Source: Acidobacteriota bacterium (lineage in GTDB: Bacteria > Acidobacteriota > Terriglobia > Versatilivoradales > Versatilivoraceae). Taken from it: a stretch of 54,826 nt of DNA. The position numbers were made by a program, and so were the translations under genes. The notes under the pieces were generated by a model. The model had not been told where the DNA came from and did no database searches. It saw only the letters and a program-made list of their open reading frames with translations. This document shows positions 33,092 to 37,884 of this stretch, piece by piece. The stretch is from NCBI GenBank assembly GCA_028875575.1, contig JAPPDF010000080.1, positions 39,114 through 93,939 of the forward strand, written 5' to 3'. Each line of letters starts with the position of its first letter. The stretch's first letter is position 1.

Positions 33092-33226
33092 GGGAACTCC
33101 TCTCCTTGGAATCAACGCGCTTGGGGTAGGTTATCGCGTTATCGTTATCCGCGACTGTAAGGTAGTGGAAATTGAATGGAACCCTAAAATGTGCGAGAAA
33201 GCTTGGTGAGTAGCTTTACATACATT

Positions 33227-34156
33227 CTAAGTCATAGTGTCGACAGGAGTTCCTTGTAGCGTATGACTACCCGCAACAGATTGATAGGTGCATTCGTGCT
33301 CAAGAAATTTCCGAAGTGCTTCCAAGTCAACCTTGCCTTCGTTCAGGTCTGATCCTGGGATCATAATAGATAGTTTTTCGGTTAGCTTGCCTTCACGAGA
33401 TGACGCAACAAAAGAACGAATTAAATGCTGCACAAGCTTCTCTTTCGGAGTATTAATTCGTGAGAAACCTGACCCGAGGATCGGACAAACTAGATTCTCC
33501 ATCCCCCCCCTTTCTCTTAGCTGACTCCACATGATTGGAAGAGCATCTAGCAGTTCATCTAGTGTCGATTGTGCCACGCGGTTGTTATTTAGAGACGCGA
33601 TAGAAACAAAATACGCTTTCCTATTCTTCAATATCACCGGGCAAACTGTGCCGCGTCCGTAGGAATTCCGCTTGCCGAATCTCTTACTTGTCACCGGCAA
33701 CTCAGATTGTATTGGTATATCTGTTAACGATTCGTTCAATTGAGTGTCAAGTTCCCTAACATCGTGTGCAAATCTCAGCGTAAACTGACCTTGAATACTT
33801 TTCTCAGAAATCGTGTGGTCTTCCATTGATGTGTCAAAGGTCGTATTGCTACCGATGATGAATGCCCCTTCTCTCTTGAACATATCTCCAACACGCAATT
33901 CCACAATAATATCTGTGTCTGATATGAGAGAGCTTGGAAATCTCTGTCTTGAGTTCCACCCGGCGTGTAGGCTCGTGGCCGAGGGGACTACGAACCAAGC
34001 TTGTTCTAGAATTTTCAAGAGTAGAATGTTGTCAGGAACAAGCCAAGATAACATTCTCTGCAAGCTAAGCCAGATTCCCAATCCATAGAAAATCCCACCA
34101 AAAAAGGGGCCAATGGATGGCCTTATCCACCAATAAATCGTTTTAAATGATGGCAT
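33227..34156 (-). CDS. thsA: ThsA-like effector of type II Thoeris (TM-macro protein)
   Basis: 309 residues from the ATG at 34156; a TTG at 34171 that overlaps the thsB stop (TTGA) is an equally possible start. Residues about 13-60 hold one or two hydrophobic membrane segments. The rest is the macro domain once called DUF6430: VELRVGDMFKREGAFIIGSNTTFD, SEKSIQGQF, then the conserved PILGSGFSRI and LSIMIPGSDLNEGKVDL. In type II Thoeris this macro domain binds a histidine-ADPR signal made by ThsB and triggers membrane damage and cell death upon phage infection (known from the family). It lies directly downstream of the TIR gene. AT-rich codon use marks it as acquired. Confidence 0.85.
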   Translation of the reverse strand: MPSFKTIYWWIRPSIGPFFGGIFYGLGIWLSLQRMLSWLVPDNILLLKILEQAWFVVPSATSLHAGWNSRQRFPSSLISDTDIIVELRVGDMFKREGAFIIGSNTTFDTSMEDHTISEKSIQGQFTLRFAHDVRELDTQLNESLTDIPIQSELPVTSKRFGKRNSYGRGTVCPVILKNRKAYFVSIASLNNNRVAQSTLDELLDALPIMWSQLRERGGMENLVCPILGSGFSRINTPKEKLVQHLIRSFVASSREGKLTEKLSIMIPGSDLNEGKVDLEALRKFLEHECTYQSVAGSHTLQGTPVDTMT

Positions 34157-34167
34157 GTTAAAAGCTT

Positions 34168-34671
34168 TCAAAGATTGAGCTCTTGGTAAACAGAGTCTGT
34201 GTAGTAATACGCATCAGATTCTCCACGCTTCTTGAGTTCTCGATGCCTGTGAGGCCAGTCCTGTAGGGCATACTGGAGAATCTTAGAATTGAAACTAATG
34301 TGTATTGCGAGTTGGTCTCGAATTACTGGTGGACAACGATCTTTGTCAAGAGATCGTTTTTTATTTAGATTCACCCCAATGATAGGTAGTCCAAGCACTA
34401 CCGCCTGTTCCAACTCCCACCTTACGAACTTATATAAGTACCTAGTCTGCGATCCGATTAGCGACACGACTATCTTTGAGTTTAGTAGCCGTACCCTTAG
34501 TCGTCTCTTTATTGTTTGTTCACTACTTGTGTCACGGGCAACGTTTAAGTCGTGAGCATCATGAAAATTAAAACTCGAATAGTCGCTTTGCTTCCACGCT
34601 TTCATTAGCCGGTAGTAGCGAATGTCGTTATCTCCGTCAAACGACACAAAGATTTTATTGCGATAGGCCAT
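34168..34671 (-). CDS. thsB: ThsB TIR-domain protein of type II Thoeris
   Basis: 167 residues; GGAG lies 8 bases before the ATG at 34671. It is a TIR-like fold (ThsB/MTH538 type): NKIFVSFDGDNDIRYYRLMK at the N-terminus, SSFNFHDAHD, SKIVVSLIGSQTRYLYKFV, then RWELEQAVVLGLPIIGV. Glu86 after Trp85 matches the catalytic Glu position of ThsB proteins, which consume NAD+ to make a nucleotide signal when phage is sensed. The next gene encodes the TM-macro receptor/effector, and the two frames touch, so this is one operon. The neighbouring IS relic lies upstream. Confidence 0.87.
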   Translation of the reverse strand: MAYRNKIFVSFDGDNDIRYYRLMKAWKQSDYSSFNFHDAHDLNVARDTSSEQTIKRRLRVRLLNSKIVVSLIGSQTRYLYKFVRWELEQAVVLGLPIIGVNLNKKRSLDKDRCPPVIRDQLAIHISFNSKILQYALQDWPHRHRELKKRGESDAYYYTDSVYQELNL

Positions 34672-34829
34672 TGCTTATGCTCCTTCGTGGCGATGGATTG
34701 CGGCGCTTCCCCCATTTAGGTCCAGTTCGAAAGTAAGGATATTGATTCAATTATCCCTTCCATCGCGTCTAGGGGAAAGTGGAATATATGGAGAATTTTT
34801 CACGGTCTAGCAGCAACACAGCCTGTATC
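34672..34829. other. Upstream region of thsB
   Basis: AT-rich leader that must carry the leftward thsBA promoter. No -35/-10 pair stands out clearly, and no other gene was seen. Confidence 0.35.
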
Positions 34830-35050
34830 TCCCGACAGACGAAACTGCCCCGGAGTGAAATACACTAACGCACTGTGGGACGCTCCCGGTTGTAGTGAAT
34901 CCGCCAAGCCTCTATGTTGCGCCGGCTTCCAGATCAACAAACCAGTACACCCTCAGACACGCATCCCGGAAATTGGCGTTGAAGCTTTCCATTAGCCCAT
35001 CTTCAACAACAAATGGATGTTGCCAGATCTACGATTCGGAATACTTTCAT
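34830..35050 (-). pseudogene. IS3-family transposase relic (C-terminal part, frameshifted)
   Basis: On the minus strand three frames in turn encode pieces of the IS3 OrfB C-terminus. First comes GLMESFNANFRDACLRVYWF (family: ESFN-x-FRDE-CL-x-x-x-WF), then RNIEAWRIHYNRERP (family: WR-x-x-YN-x-x-RPHSAL), then HSALVYFTPGQF. Small indels separate them, and the upstream catalytic DDE region is missing. An ATG at 35050 preceded by the palindrome GGAGGATCCTCC may be the first codons of the original element joined by internal deletion. It is non-functional. It shows past transposition inside the island, between thsB and the DUF3800 gene. Confidence 0.75.
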
Positions 35051-35118
35051 GTGGAGGATCCTCCTTCAGGGCCGGACTTGGCGGGGGAACCTATTCACGC
35101 TGAGGCAGGTTCAGGATC

Positions 35119-36030
35119 ATGCCTATACTGACTGCATACTTGGACGAGAGCGGACACGTAAGGGATCCAAAACTAAATTTTGTGGGAATGGCTGGGTTTG
35201 TTGCACCTGCTGCCAATTGGGACACTCTCGCGCCGGAGTGGCACAATATTTTAGTGAAAGCTGGCTTTCAGGAACCGTTTCACATGAGCGAATTTGCCCA
35301 CTCCAGAGGGCAATTCACTAGGTTTAGGCGCAATGAATCTGAGAGGCGGAGATTCTTCGGAAAATTGCTGGGTGCTATTAAGCGTAGCCGGGCAACACCA
35401 ATAGGAGCAATCATCTCGCTCAACGCTTACGACGCGTTGACCCGATCGCAAAAGGACTCATTTGTAGACCCTTACTATGTTGTGTTTCAGATTTGCACAC
35501 GTTATGCGGCGCTGAAGACTGACCCAGGTGAATGCGTAGACATGGTTTACAGCCGCCATGCCCAATTCGGCACAGTTAACAGTTCAGCGCGGAGGGACAA
35601 AATACCTGGAAGGGGAAGAAAACTGTGGTACGCGATGAAATCTGACCCACGATACGCATCCCGCTTGAGGAGATTTTCCGCAGCATCGCCCAAGGATCAT
35701 GCGGAATTGCAGGCCGCCGACCTTTTTGCATACGAACTTGTCCATGAGTTTGAGAATCGGATCGCGCGACCTAAGGACGCCATGCGCCACGGGTTGCGCC
35801 AGATCCTGAGCATGCAGGCTATTCCAGCGCCGAACATTGACCTGTTGGATAGGAAAGAGCTTCTTTACCTCGTCAAACGCAGTGGCTTTCCAGACCAGAC
35901 TGGAGTCGCAGAGGTCGACGAGATGGTGAGGCTATCGGCAAAGCAGGCAATGGTGAAGTGGATGCAAGAACGCGGCGGTGTTTCTAGTGGGATGCACGTA
36001 GTGTGGGATGAGCCGTCGTTCCTGAAATGA
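35119..36030 (+). CDS. DUF3800 domain-containing protein
   Basis: 303 residues. The N-terminus LTAYLDESGHVRD carries the DE motif (Asp9, Glu10) and AELQAADLFAYE in the second half carries the conserved Asp, the pattern of DUF3800, predicted to be an RNase H-like fold. The biochemical role is unknown. Such genes are scattered in accessory and defence regions. It lies between the IS relic and the convergent GIY-YIG/DGQHR pair. Its base composition is intermediate, GC-richer than the Thoeris genes, so it may have arrived separately. Confidence 0.85.
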   Translation: MPILTAYLDESGHVRDPKLNFVGMAGFVAPAANWDTLAPEWHNILVKAGFQEPFHMSEFAHSRGQFTRFRRNESERRRFFGKLLGAIKRSRATPIGAIISLNAYDALTRSQKDSFVDPYYVVFQICTRYAALKTDPGECVDMVYSRHAQFGTVNSSARRDKIPGRGRKLWYAMKSDPRYASRLRRFSAASPKDHAELQAADLFAYELVHEFENRIARPKDAMRHGLRQILSMQAIPAPNIDLLDRKELLYLVKRSGFPDQTGVAEVDEMVRLSAKQAMVKWMQERGGVSSGMHVVWDEPSFLK

Positions 36031-36092
36031 CCGGATGAGGGATGGTGTAGCCAACGGTAATCGTCTCAGTATTTGAAACCGGTGACCATTTT

Positions 36093-36431
36093 TCAAACTG
36101 AGATTGGCGAGCAGATCCTATTTAATATCGGGCGGTTACCATCTACTAATTCGCATTCATGTTGCCATGTTCTCTCCACTTTCTGAAACTCATCGCATTG
36201 GAGCCAATAAAAGAAAAATGCCCTGCCCTTCTCTGTCAATGAACGCTTCCCTGGATCATCTAAGTGGTCTCCAAAACGCCTCCGCAGATTTCTGGTGAGC
36301 CCTACATAGAGAACAACACCCTCGAACGACACGAGCGCGTAGCACCCAGACTTCGCAGGAATGAAACGCTGCCGATCACGCCGGAAGTTTTCTCGGTGCT
36401 CAGGAAAGGGCTTGAGAAGTGAGACTTTCAC
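36093..36431 (-). CDS. GIY-YIG nuclease-fold protein
   Basis: 112 residues. The motif halves are GCY at about 29-31 and YVG at 42-44, followed by an Arg (about 52) and His56 in RRRFGDHL. Glu92 and Asn104 in HECELVDGNRPILN match the expected metal-binding Glu and conserved Asn. It is a stand-alone single-domain nuclease candidate. The ATG overlaps the stop of the upstream DGQHR gene by four bases (ATGA), which argues for a joint function. No DNA-binding domain is visible. Its role is unknown. Confidence 0.8.
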   Translation of the reverse strand: MKVSLLKPFPEHRENFRRDRQRFIPAKSGCYALVSFEGVVLYVGLTRNLRRRFGDHLDDPGKRSLTEKGRAFFFYWLQCDEFQKVERTWQHECELVDGNRPILNRICSPISV

Positions 36432-37552
36432 AACTCGATCTCACCAGACATAGCTGGTTTGTGGAGCGCCTTAGCCATTTGTTGAGCAACGTGTGCTATC
36501 GCAGCTGCGTTTAATCCACTTGCCTTTCCACCTCTGGCCCACCATTCCGAATGCCCGACACCCGCATATTCACCCTCAACATTATCAAAACAAGCTGAGA
36601 GTAAATCTTTCATTGCTTGGACCGTGAATTTGCTGTCGTTCTGAAGCTTTGTGAAAAATGGAATTGAAAACCGAGAAAATAGCTCCACGCCGTTGTATCT
36701 GTACAAAACCGACGCATTACCGTCATCGACAAGGTCAGCAATGGCCTTCCAATAATTTAGAAAAATCCTCTTTTCCTTATTGAAATCGTTTAGGACAGCT
36801 ATCGGATTATTTGCGGTCAATACGTATTTGACAATCGCCTTTACCATGGACCGCTGGTTTATCATATTGGCACTTGGATCATTTGCCATCCTTATCTTCC
36901 CACACCATGGGGAATTCGGTTCTTCATTCAGAAAGTCTGCAAGTCGAACGGCCTTCTCGACCTCGCCTCTTTCCACAACATTGAGAATCCATTTAGGAAG
37001 ACTTGGAATATCTTCTACATCCAAGGCTTCGGTCAATCGCGCCACGATCCGTTGTTCTACTGCCTTATCGACACTTTTTTGGGTCGTATTGACGATTAGA
37101 AAATGGCACATTTGATGGAGTTTGGGTAAATTTACAGCGATATTTACTGGGACTACGAATTCGCGCACCCTATGGTCTTTCTTCGCAGCCACCTTCAGAC
37201 CCTCCAAGCGATGTTGTCCGTCAACGACACTAAAAGGTCCTATGGTGGCCGTATCGAAATTGATGGTGTTTGTTGAGGCGTCGAAATCTAGAGGCTTGTC
37301 GGTCGCCAACAACACTGATGTAGGCAGGAATGCATCTTGATCATCCTGGCCCTTTACGATGTAGTCGGCCAGTTTTCTGGCCCGTGCTCGGTTCAATAGT
37401 CGCTGGTATCCAGAGTCACCTGCAGCACTGGGATCCAAGGTCTCGACAGAATAAAAAGAATCCTGAGTTAAGACTTTGACCTTTATCGCTGTCGCGAACA
37501 AGGTCAACTCACCTTGCTGCACCTTTGCCACTGGAAGTTTGAGTATTGCCAT
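36428..37552 (-). CDS. DGQHR domain-containing protein (DndB/ParB-like superfamily)
   Basis: 374 residues. DGQHR is at 111-115 within GPFSVVDGQHRLEGL, and the surrounding strands and NTTQKSVDKAVEQRI resemble DndB-type proteins. DndB is a regulator of phosphorothioation gene sets and DpdB acts in 7-deazaguanine modification, but no dndACDE, dpdA or queuosine-type genes are present here. The gene is therefore a stand-alone member paired with a GIY-YIG protein through an ATGA overlap. The two could act as a restriction-like or nucleotide-hydrolysing defence unit; this is inference. The composition is AT-richer than the core genome. Confidence 0.82.
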   Translation of the reverse strand: MAILKLPVAKVQQGELTLFATAIKVKVLTQDSFYSVETLDPSAAGDSGYQRLLNRARARKLADYIVKGQDDQDAFLPTSVLLATDKPLDFDASTNTINFDTATIGPFSVVDGQHRLEGLKVAAKKDHRVREFVVPVNIAVNLPKLHQMCHFLIVNTTQKSVDKAVEQRIVARLTEALDVEDIPSLPKWILNVVERGEVEKAVRLADFLNEEPNSPWCGKIRMANDPSANMINQRSMVKAIVKYVLTANNPIAVLNDFNKEKRIFLNYWKAIADLVDDGNASVLYRYNGVELFSRFSIPFFTKLQNDSKFTVQAMKDLLSACFDNVEGEYAGVGHSEWWARGGKASGLNAAAIAHVAQQMAKALHKPAMSGEIEL

Positions 37553-37884
37553 CGTAAGGTCTACAAAGAATAAACTCTACAGACTATACCATGCCAGCGT
37601 TGACGGCATGCATGGCTTCGATGCCCGAATTGCCGGAATCGGCATTCCACCGGAGAATGTCCCAGAGCAGGTCGCTTCACATATACAGGGAACGTGGGTG
37701 AATTCGAATCTGGATCTTCGTTGAATCTTCAAGCAGTAAGCAGTTCGCGAATGTTTCGCTTCACGAATGCCACCACCACCTCTGGACCATGGCCGTTACC
37801 CTAAAAGAAGGTGCAACATTAAGTATTGAGGATGTTCCGAGGGGGTTTTAAACTAGCCCAGGCTCTGGCATGGGGAGGTACAGC
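37553..37884. other. Island right-border intergenic region
   Basis: 332 bp without a convincing gene. Composition shifts from AT-richer back to GC-rich towards 37860. I looked for insertion-sequence ends and direct repeats with the left border and found none I could defend. Confidence 0.4.

Follow-up and report, generated by a model that had tools for sequence, protein, structure and literature searches.

A very probable type II Thoeris pair on an acquired defence island of an Acidobacteriota bacterium, with phenylalanine at the active-site tyrosine position of ThsB

The window analysed here, a stretch of 54,826 nucleotides from an Acidobacteriota bacterium, carries a thsB-thsA gene pair that is very probably a type II Thoeris system acting by abortive infection and brought in on a small defence island. 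The gene families, the predicted folds, the operon, the catalytic glutamate, part of the nucleotide cleft and the insertion of the island can be seen directly. Judged by existing models, which recognise both ThsA and ThsB, the pair is of a known kind, and the type II Thoeris label of the first-pass annotation fits its families, folds and operon layout. The ThsB nevertheless departs from its nearest solved relative at one active-site residue, Phe8, which replaces a tyrosine and makes the identity of the signal less certain.

Both genes lie on the minus strand with intact frames, thsB (34168..34671, 167 aa, ATG start) first and thsA (33227..34171, 314 aa, TTG start) second. They share a 4-base overlap, TTGA (34168..34171, minus strand), made of the thsA start TTG and the thsB stop TGA, so that the pairing, order and contact described earlier were all recovered. 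An in-frame ATG lies five codons downstream of the thsA TTG, and the listed start codons of four relatives (L003, L004, L012 and L015) would allow GTGA or ATGA overlaps. An RBS-like AAGGAG (34680-34685) stands 8 nt 5' of the thsB ATG. A scan upstream of thsB found no sigma-70 consensus, which counts against the standard reading, although such scans mean little in this host; a promoter and terminator scan was likewise uninformative, its promoters falling below the shuffled mean.

ThsB, the presumed infection sensor and a predicted TIR-domain signal synthase, matched Pfam PF08937 (ThsB_TIR) at E 3.3e-18 and the PADLOC ThsB model PDLC00429 at E 7.5e-76 (residues 1-166). ThsA, the presumed membrane effector with a macro-domain sensor, matched the PADLOC ThsA model at 7e-46 and, above the cut-off, Pfam PF20016 (ThsA_Macro) at E 6.2e-47 through its macro domain (residues 90-271; 33359..33904, minus strand). 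As profile matches, these Pfam and PADLOC scores are far beyond chance; NCBIfam held no supporting model for ThsA or ThsB. The first-pass annotation had named a DUF6430-type macro domain, which we take to be an older name of the family called ThsA_Macro in the Pfam used here, and the three motifs it quoted (IIGSNTTFD, LGSGFSRI and SIMIPGSDL) all occur in the ThsA translation. A type I Thoeris system was considered and rejected, with SIR2 and SLOG absent and ThsA_Macro the sole Pfam family on ThsA up to E 1. At E 0.001, PF08937 and PF20016 each matched once in the whole genome, and on this basis a further ThsB sensor elsewhere, such as E. coli has, was rejected.

Structural comparison agreed with these assignments. 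The AlphaFold2 model of ThsA (md527fdd9e73c; pLDDT 87.0, from a 17-row alignment) matched solved ThsA macro structures, those of EcThsA and PcThsA among them, with Z scores of 25.7 for 8v6s, 25.5 for 8v6r and 25.1 for 8r66 (8v6q also fell within 25.1-25.7), against 17.9 for the best non-ThsA macro domain. These matches spanned 203-207 residues within model residues 76-297, barely covering the N-terminal part. The ThsB model (ma42958e4ca0f; pLDDT 84.5, from a 25-row alignment) matched EcThsB2 (8v6t) best, with Z 22.6, rmsd 2.1 and 39% identity over 157 aligned residues (model 6-167), the next-best structure being 3hyn at Z 14.9. Foldseek concurred for both proteins, and both the ThsA macro fold and the TIR site anticipated from the letters alone are present in the models. 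We base the Thoeris identity on these profile and structural matches, on the EcThsA cleft residues and ThsB tail tyrosines that are kept, on the macro ThsA beside ThsB in 18 of the 25 genome-contig loci found by ThsB alone, and on the overlapping genes, the RBS-like motif and the location at a mobile, variable site.

The weakest of the earlier claims was that ThsA begins with hydrophobic segments. Its N-terminal part, residues 9-74 (33950..34147, minus strand), is the presumed membrane part and is indeed modelled as helices (9-44, 49-57 and 61-74), yet its best two 19-residue Kyte-Doolittle windows reach only 1.36 and 1.31, which is weak and a mild point against the membrane mechanism. Among the close relatives carrying Phe8, the six measured (L002, L003 and L005-L008, with L004 left out) each have at least one clearer hydrophobic segment, with best windows of 1.77-2.23. 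This weak N-terminus, together with the TTG start and a broken transposase fragment adjoining the pair, could be read as the mark of a decaying or non-functional copy captured on the island. We consider that very unlikely, given that both frames are intact and full length and that the catalytic glutamate, the tail tyrosines, the RBS-like motif and the gene overlap are all kept.

Many macro domains are hydrolases (PMC11204291), and two genes so tightly coupled might form another kind of TIR-macro pair, for instance a TIR NADase toxin with a macro antitoxin that hydrolyses its product. However, the macro domain is specifically of the ThsA kind (its Pfam family is ThsA_Macro, and Z is about 25 with ThsA structures but no higher than 17.9 with other macro domains), and the EcThsA macro domain showed neither deacetylase nor glycohydrolase activity (PMC11204291), making such a pair extremely improbable. 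Within the cleft, the window ThsA keeps five EcThsA residues (D83, N96, D100, S217 and G218, as D96, N109, D113, S234 and G235) and changes two conservatively (T220 to S237 and L113 to I126). Four EcThsA contacts are altered: N114 to Q127, S175 to A192, H259 to P272 and K262 to D275, the last two in loosely aligned columns where the 8r66 ThsA departs from EcThsA as well. Asn114 touches the distal ribose in EcThsA (PMC11204291), and the corresponding window codon is that of Gln127 (CAA, 33791..33793, minus strand).

At the ThsB active site, the codon of Glu86 (GAG, 34414..34416, minus strand) aligns with the catalytic Glu89 of EcThsB2, and glutamate occupies this position in all 66 sequences that reach it out of 67 aligned, one (L053) being truncated before residue 86. 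The C-terminal tail, about residues 148-167 (34171..34230, minus strand), holds Tyr157 and Tyr162, which align with the EcThsB2 tail tyrosines Tyr159 and Tyr164. The earlier description of ThsB as a TIR fold with a catalytic-type Glu86 was right, as PF08937, the match to EcThsB2 and the alignment of Glu86 with Glu89 attest; what it overlooked is that the codon of residue 8 (TTT, 34648..34650, minus strand) gives phenylalanine at the position of the EcThsB2 active-site tyrosine, Tyr8. According to Shi et al. 2024 (PMC11204291), Tyr8 and Glu89 are the active-site residues of EcThsB2, Tyr8 marks its class, and ThsBs of the Tyr type fall into three subfamilies whose partner is exclusively a TM-macro ThsA. 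The window ThsB fits the EcThsB2 class (ThsB subfamily 9, Shi et al. 2024) by fold, sequence and C-terminal tail and lacks its active-site tyrosine; because of Phe8 we call it EcThsB2-like, not a Tyr-type member. By alignment to EcThsB2, Phe8 would contact Glu86.

Residue 8 was Tyr in 58, Phe in eight and Ala in one of the 67 aligned ThsBs, a sample biased by the queries, since Phe8 was present in one of the six peptides searched with and the pattern used on viral contigs allowed Tyr or Phe; the single Ala belongs to L088, an apparent deletion hybrid whose residue 8 derives from ThsA. A smaller alignment held 60 sequences (the window, EcThsB2 and 58 loci). The distant L029 (25% identical) stands in both alignments, the rows include copies or near-copies (L035/L036, L044/L045, L032/L057 and L055/EcThsB2), and L086 (77 residues, at a contig end) and the phage hit H10 were excluded from all counts. 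The eight Phe8 proteins are that of the window and those of L002-L008, the seven best of 25 genome-contig matches. L002-L008 come from metagenome-assembled genomes labelled with seven phyla (Acidobacteriota, Gemmatimonadota, Chloroflexota, Myxococcota, Actinomycetota, Bdellovibrionota and Pseudomonadota), and the idea of a one-off mutation to Phe8 was accordingly rejected. Nor does Phe8 follow from closeness alone, since the ThsB of the viral contig L030, 63% identical to that of the window and as close as several Phe8 members, has Tyr8. A scan of viral contigs with a Phe8-only alignment found no further Phe8 members: its five loci all have Tyr8 and were all already in the set.

Whether Phe8 arose once depends on the tree. 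With column 8 included (and L029 omitted), a single branch set the Phe8 ThsBs apart from all the others (84/82), as it did in 92% of 200 bootstrap trees, weakly supporting an exact single origin. This was not upheld once column 8 was removed and more rows were added, in ThsB trees omitting L029, L053 and L088: Phe8 then needed two changes, 0% of 200 bootstrap trees had one, and the smallest starred clade holding all eight Phe8 proteins contained ten (97/87), including the Tyr8 proteins of L030 and L031. A ThsA tree, which uses no ThsB data, drew the partners of the eight Phe8 ThsBs as an exact clade (100/99). A group table, in which Phe8 rows were compared only with rows of TIRs paired with SLATT effectors, is not evidence for a single origin, which is plausible from these trees and not proved.

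Across 46 places where both genes lie on one strand, the residue at the Asn114 position was Gln in 30 of the 31 thsB-first places, the window included, and Leu in the other; in the 15 thsA-first places it was Asn in 11 and His in four. The divergent L054, kept apart from this count, has Asn, as do the solved Ec, Pc and 8r66 ThsA proteins; L087 and L091, thsA-first by annotation, were left out. The association of gene order with Gln reflects shared ancestry more than independent correlation. By both characters, and unnoticed in the first-pass annotation, the window pair sits in the thsB-first, Gln-type branch of type II Thoeris; the solved ThsA structures that we found all lie outside this branch. 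Among the solved structures and the available text of the cited papers, we found no biochemistry for the thsB-first branch, its Phe8 ThsBs with Gln-type ThsA included.

By analogy with the family, ThsB would sense phage infection, and base exchange at its TIR site, with Glu86, would turn NAD+ into an adenine-dinucleotide signal. This is most likely histidine-ADPR or something closely related to it. This signal would bind the ThsA macro domain, whereupon ThsA dimers would stack into higher-order oligomers, their N-terminal helices would cluster and disturb the membrane, and the cell would die before phage release, thereby providing phage defence. PMC12847820 describes TM-macro ThsA as oligomerising in response to His-ADPR, with perturbation of the membrane as the outcome, and we consider this the most likely mode of action here. 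Several points count against this standard mechanism. The His-ADPR step, which the first-pass annotation had marked as inferred, is less secure because Phe8 replaces the class-marking tyrosine; EcThsB2, the nearest solved ThsB by sequence (110.9 bits), showed no detectable NADase activity in vitro (PMC11204291); the structure 9uv0, which may be that of a His-ADPR maker, is only a distant match (38.5 bits); and several EcThsA contacts differ. We suggest that 9uv0 is possibly BaThsB, the His-ADPR maker, because its neighbour among the entries, 9uuz, is a ThsA that shows no difference from 8r66 in the aligned stretch. In addition, seven of the 25 genome-contig ThsB relatives have no adjoining macro ThsA, which counts against the standard reading.

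A rival reading, still within Thoeris, holds that the active site of the Phe8 ThsBs is of the ordinary TIR NADase type and not the deoxyribosyltransferase-like type that has the tyrosine. Their product would then differ (ADPR, a cyclic ADPR or some other dinucleotide formed by base exchange) and would be recognised in the Gln-type macro pocket. At the tyrosine position, Phe or Ala is usual in NADase-active TIR domains, and the active-site Tyr has been linked to NDT/DNPH1-like chemistry (PMC11204291). The same authors suggest that, with a 2'-hydroxyl substrate, the tyrosine constrains the glutamate too much, and because of this Phe8 could mean a more ordinary TIR enzyme. In rat DNPH1 the equivalent Tyr-to-Phe change lowered kcat/KM 280-fold, as cited in PMC10483697, and a Tyr-Asp-Glu network is described in PMC12751057. 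The distribution points in the same direction, with Phe8 in the window and its seven best genome-contig matches as opposed to Tyr in 58 of the 59 other proteins, and with Gln at the Asn114 position in every member of the exact ThsA clade that partners them. However, Gln is also found in Tyr8 systems of the same gene order and so is not specific to Phe8, and L030, with its Tyr8, falls inside the Phe8 group once column 8 is left out. Moreover, a new product cannot be deduced from a single active-site residue, and EcThsB1 makes ADPR and IAD for the same kind of ThsA, so that the signal chemistry may tolerate variation (PMC11204291). A different product is in our estimation unlikely. We put forward only tentatively the corresponding proposal, that the Phe8 ThsBs are a natural Tyr-to-Phe swap with altered product or kinetics, read by the Gln-type ThsA pocket; were it true, the Phe8 set would stand apart, within type II Thoeris, as a signalling variant of its own. 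No published discussion of Phe at the Tyr8 position of the EcThsB2 class was found in the main-text sections of PMC11204291 or the available passages of the other papers.

The type II Thoeris pair lies on an inserted island (33118..37806) that, besides thsB-thsA, holds a transposase remnant and DUF3800, GIY-YIG and DGQHR genes. The AT-rich island noted earlier was confirmed: its 4.7 kb have 47.4% GC, compared with 63.9% in the rest of the window, and the GC3 of its genes is 0.44-0.56, compared with 0.80-0.83 in three flanking genes. In six same-genus genomes, whose RraA-like gene is 94-96% identical, the site is empty in four (G397, G398, G400 and G401), where 33117 joins 37807 with 21-22 bases between, and in the other two (G396 and G399) it holds about 4 kb of other DNA. 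The empty sites and the low GC and GC3 indicate that the island was acquired, presumably recently, at a variable site; nothing clear was found in a search for repeats at its ends. At E 1e-10, ThsB was absent from the six same-genus genomes and also from five other members of the family, a set that includes incomplete genomes. A ThsB relative occurred in three of the 61 relatives searched and in three of 396 genomes drawn from the phylum, this genome being included in both counts.

Other genes of the island and of its counterparts were noted in passing. At 36093-37552 on the minus strand lies a DGQHR/DndB-like gene (374 aa) whose end is overlapped by a GIY-YIG nuclease-like gene (112 aa). The DGQHR/DndB-like product matched the DGQHR domain at 2.1e-32, Pfam DndB at 6.3e-13 and, weakly, DpdB, and together the two genes may form another defence module on the island. 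A DUF3800 protein (303 aa, 9.1e-06) is encoded at 35119-36030 on the plus strand; DUF3800 genes often lie near mobile elements. At about 34837-35028 (minus strand) is a broken fragment that resembles the C-terminal part of an integrase-core transposase, IS3-type by eye, whose rve_3 match (E 0.0018) is below the curated cut-off. The G399 cassette (L078:5845-9105) encodes a 369-aa protein, an AbiEii-like nucleotidyltransferase and an HSDR_N-like protein by Pfam, and by eye the G396 cassette (L079:1606-4878) has similar ORFs. Comparison with the empty sites suggests that, in the host genus, this is a small site where defence-like cassettes change.

ThsB-like TIRs also occur beside other partners. 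By tblastn, no macro ThsA was found in L018-L024, L028, L029, L033, L053, L055 or L061, some of them cut by contig ends. Eight Tyr8 ThsB-like TIRs are paired with a SLATT effector (L018:6001-7370, L020:6001-7370, L021:926-2328, L024:5998-7382, L028:620-2007, L085:1384-2912 and the plasmids L061 and L089), recognised as SLATT_3 and SLATT_1 by Pfam (L018, L021 and L024), by DUF4231 annotation (L061 and L089) or by eye (the others), and they form one clade (100/99) in the column-8-removed tree. In L022:5363-6480 and L023:5352-6492, the partner whose end the ThsB-like TIR overlaps is 213-221 aa long, has no confident Pfam match and is possibly a further effector type. On a Lactococcus plasmid, between restriction genes, a ThsA-like start runs into a ThsB body (L088:1501-1974), apparently a hybrid left by deletion within an old Thoeris pair.

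Compared with the type II Thoeris system of E. coli CFT073 (EcThsA 8v6q, 8v6r; EcThsB2 8v6t; PMC11204291), the window pair is alike in ThsB fold, catalytic Glu and tail tyrosines, and in the macro fold and part of the ADPR cleft of ThsA. It differs in having Phe8 instead of Tyr8, Gln127 instead of Asn114, and one ThsB instead of two, with thsB directly upstream of thsA. BaThs of Bacillus amyloliquefaciens Y2, which PMC11204291 and PMC12847820, citing Sabonis et al. 2025, give as the system that uses His-ADPR, resembles the window pair in joining a single ThsB with a single TM-macro ThsA. The macro structure 8r66, solved with a signalling molecule and here taken to be the BaThs ThsA, has the same fold as the window ThsA but carries Asn at the Asn114 position, and BaThsB has the active-site Tyr (PMC11204291) where the window ThsB has Phe8. 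The closest relative found, from an uncultured Bryobacterales metagenome-assembled genome (L002, OX638379.1), is 75% identical in ThsB and 60% in ThsA and shares the gene order, Phe8 and Gln of the window pair, with other neighbouring ORFs by eye. The TIR-SLATT neighbourhoods, a pairing whose general form is already in print (PMC9503650), likewise join a membrane effector to a TIR that is ThsB-like and belongs to the same wider family, except that this effector is SLATT, not macro, and the eight such ThsBs found have Tyr8. These Tyr ThsBs beside SLATT do not fit the statement that the Tyr type occurs exclusively with TM-macro ThsA (PMC11204291). Shi et al. tie the EcThsB2-class tyrosine to special base-exchange chemistry (PMC11204291), and natural Phe8 enzymes beside macro ThsA make this idea testable through Phe8/Tyr8 swaps.
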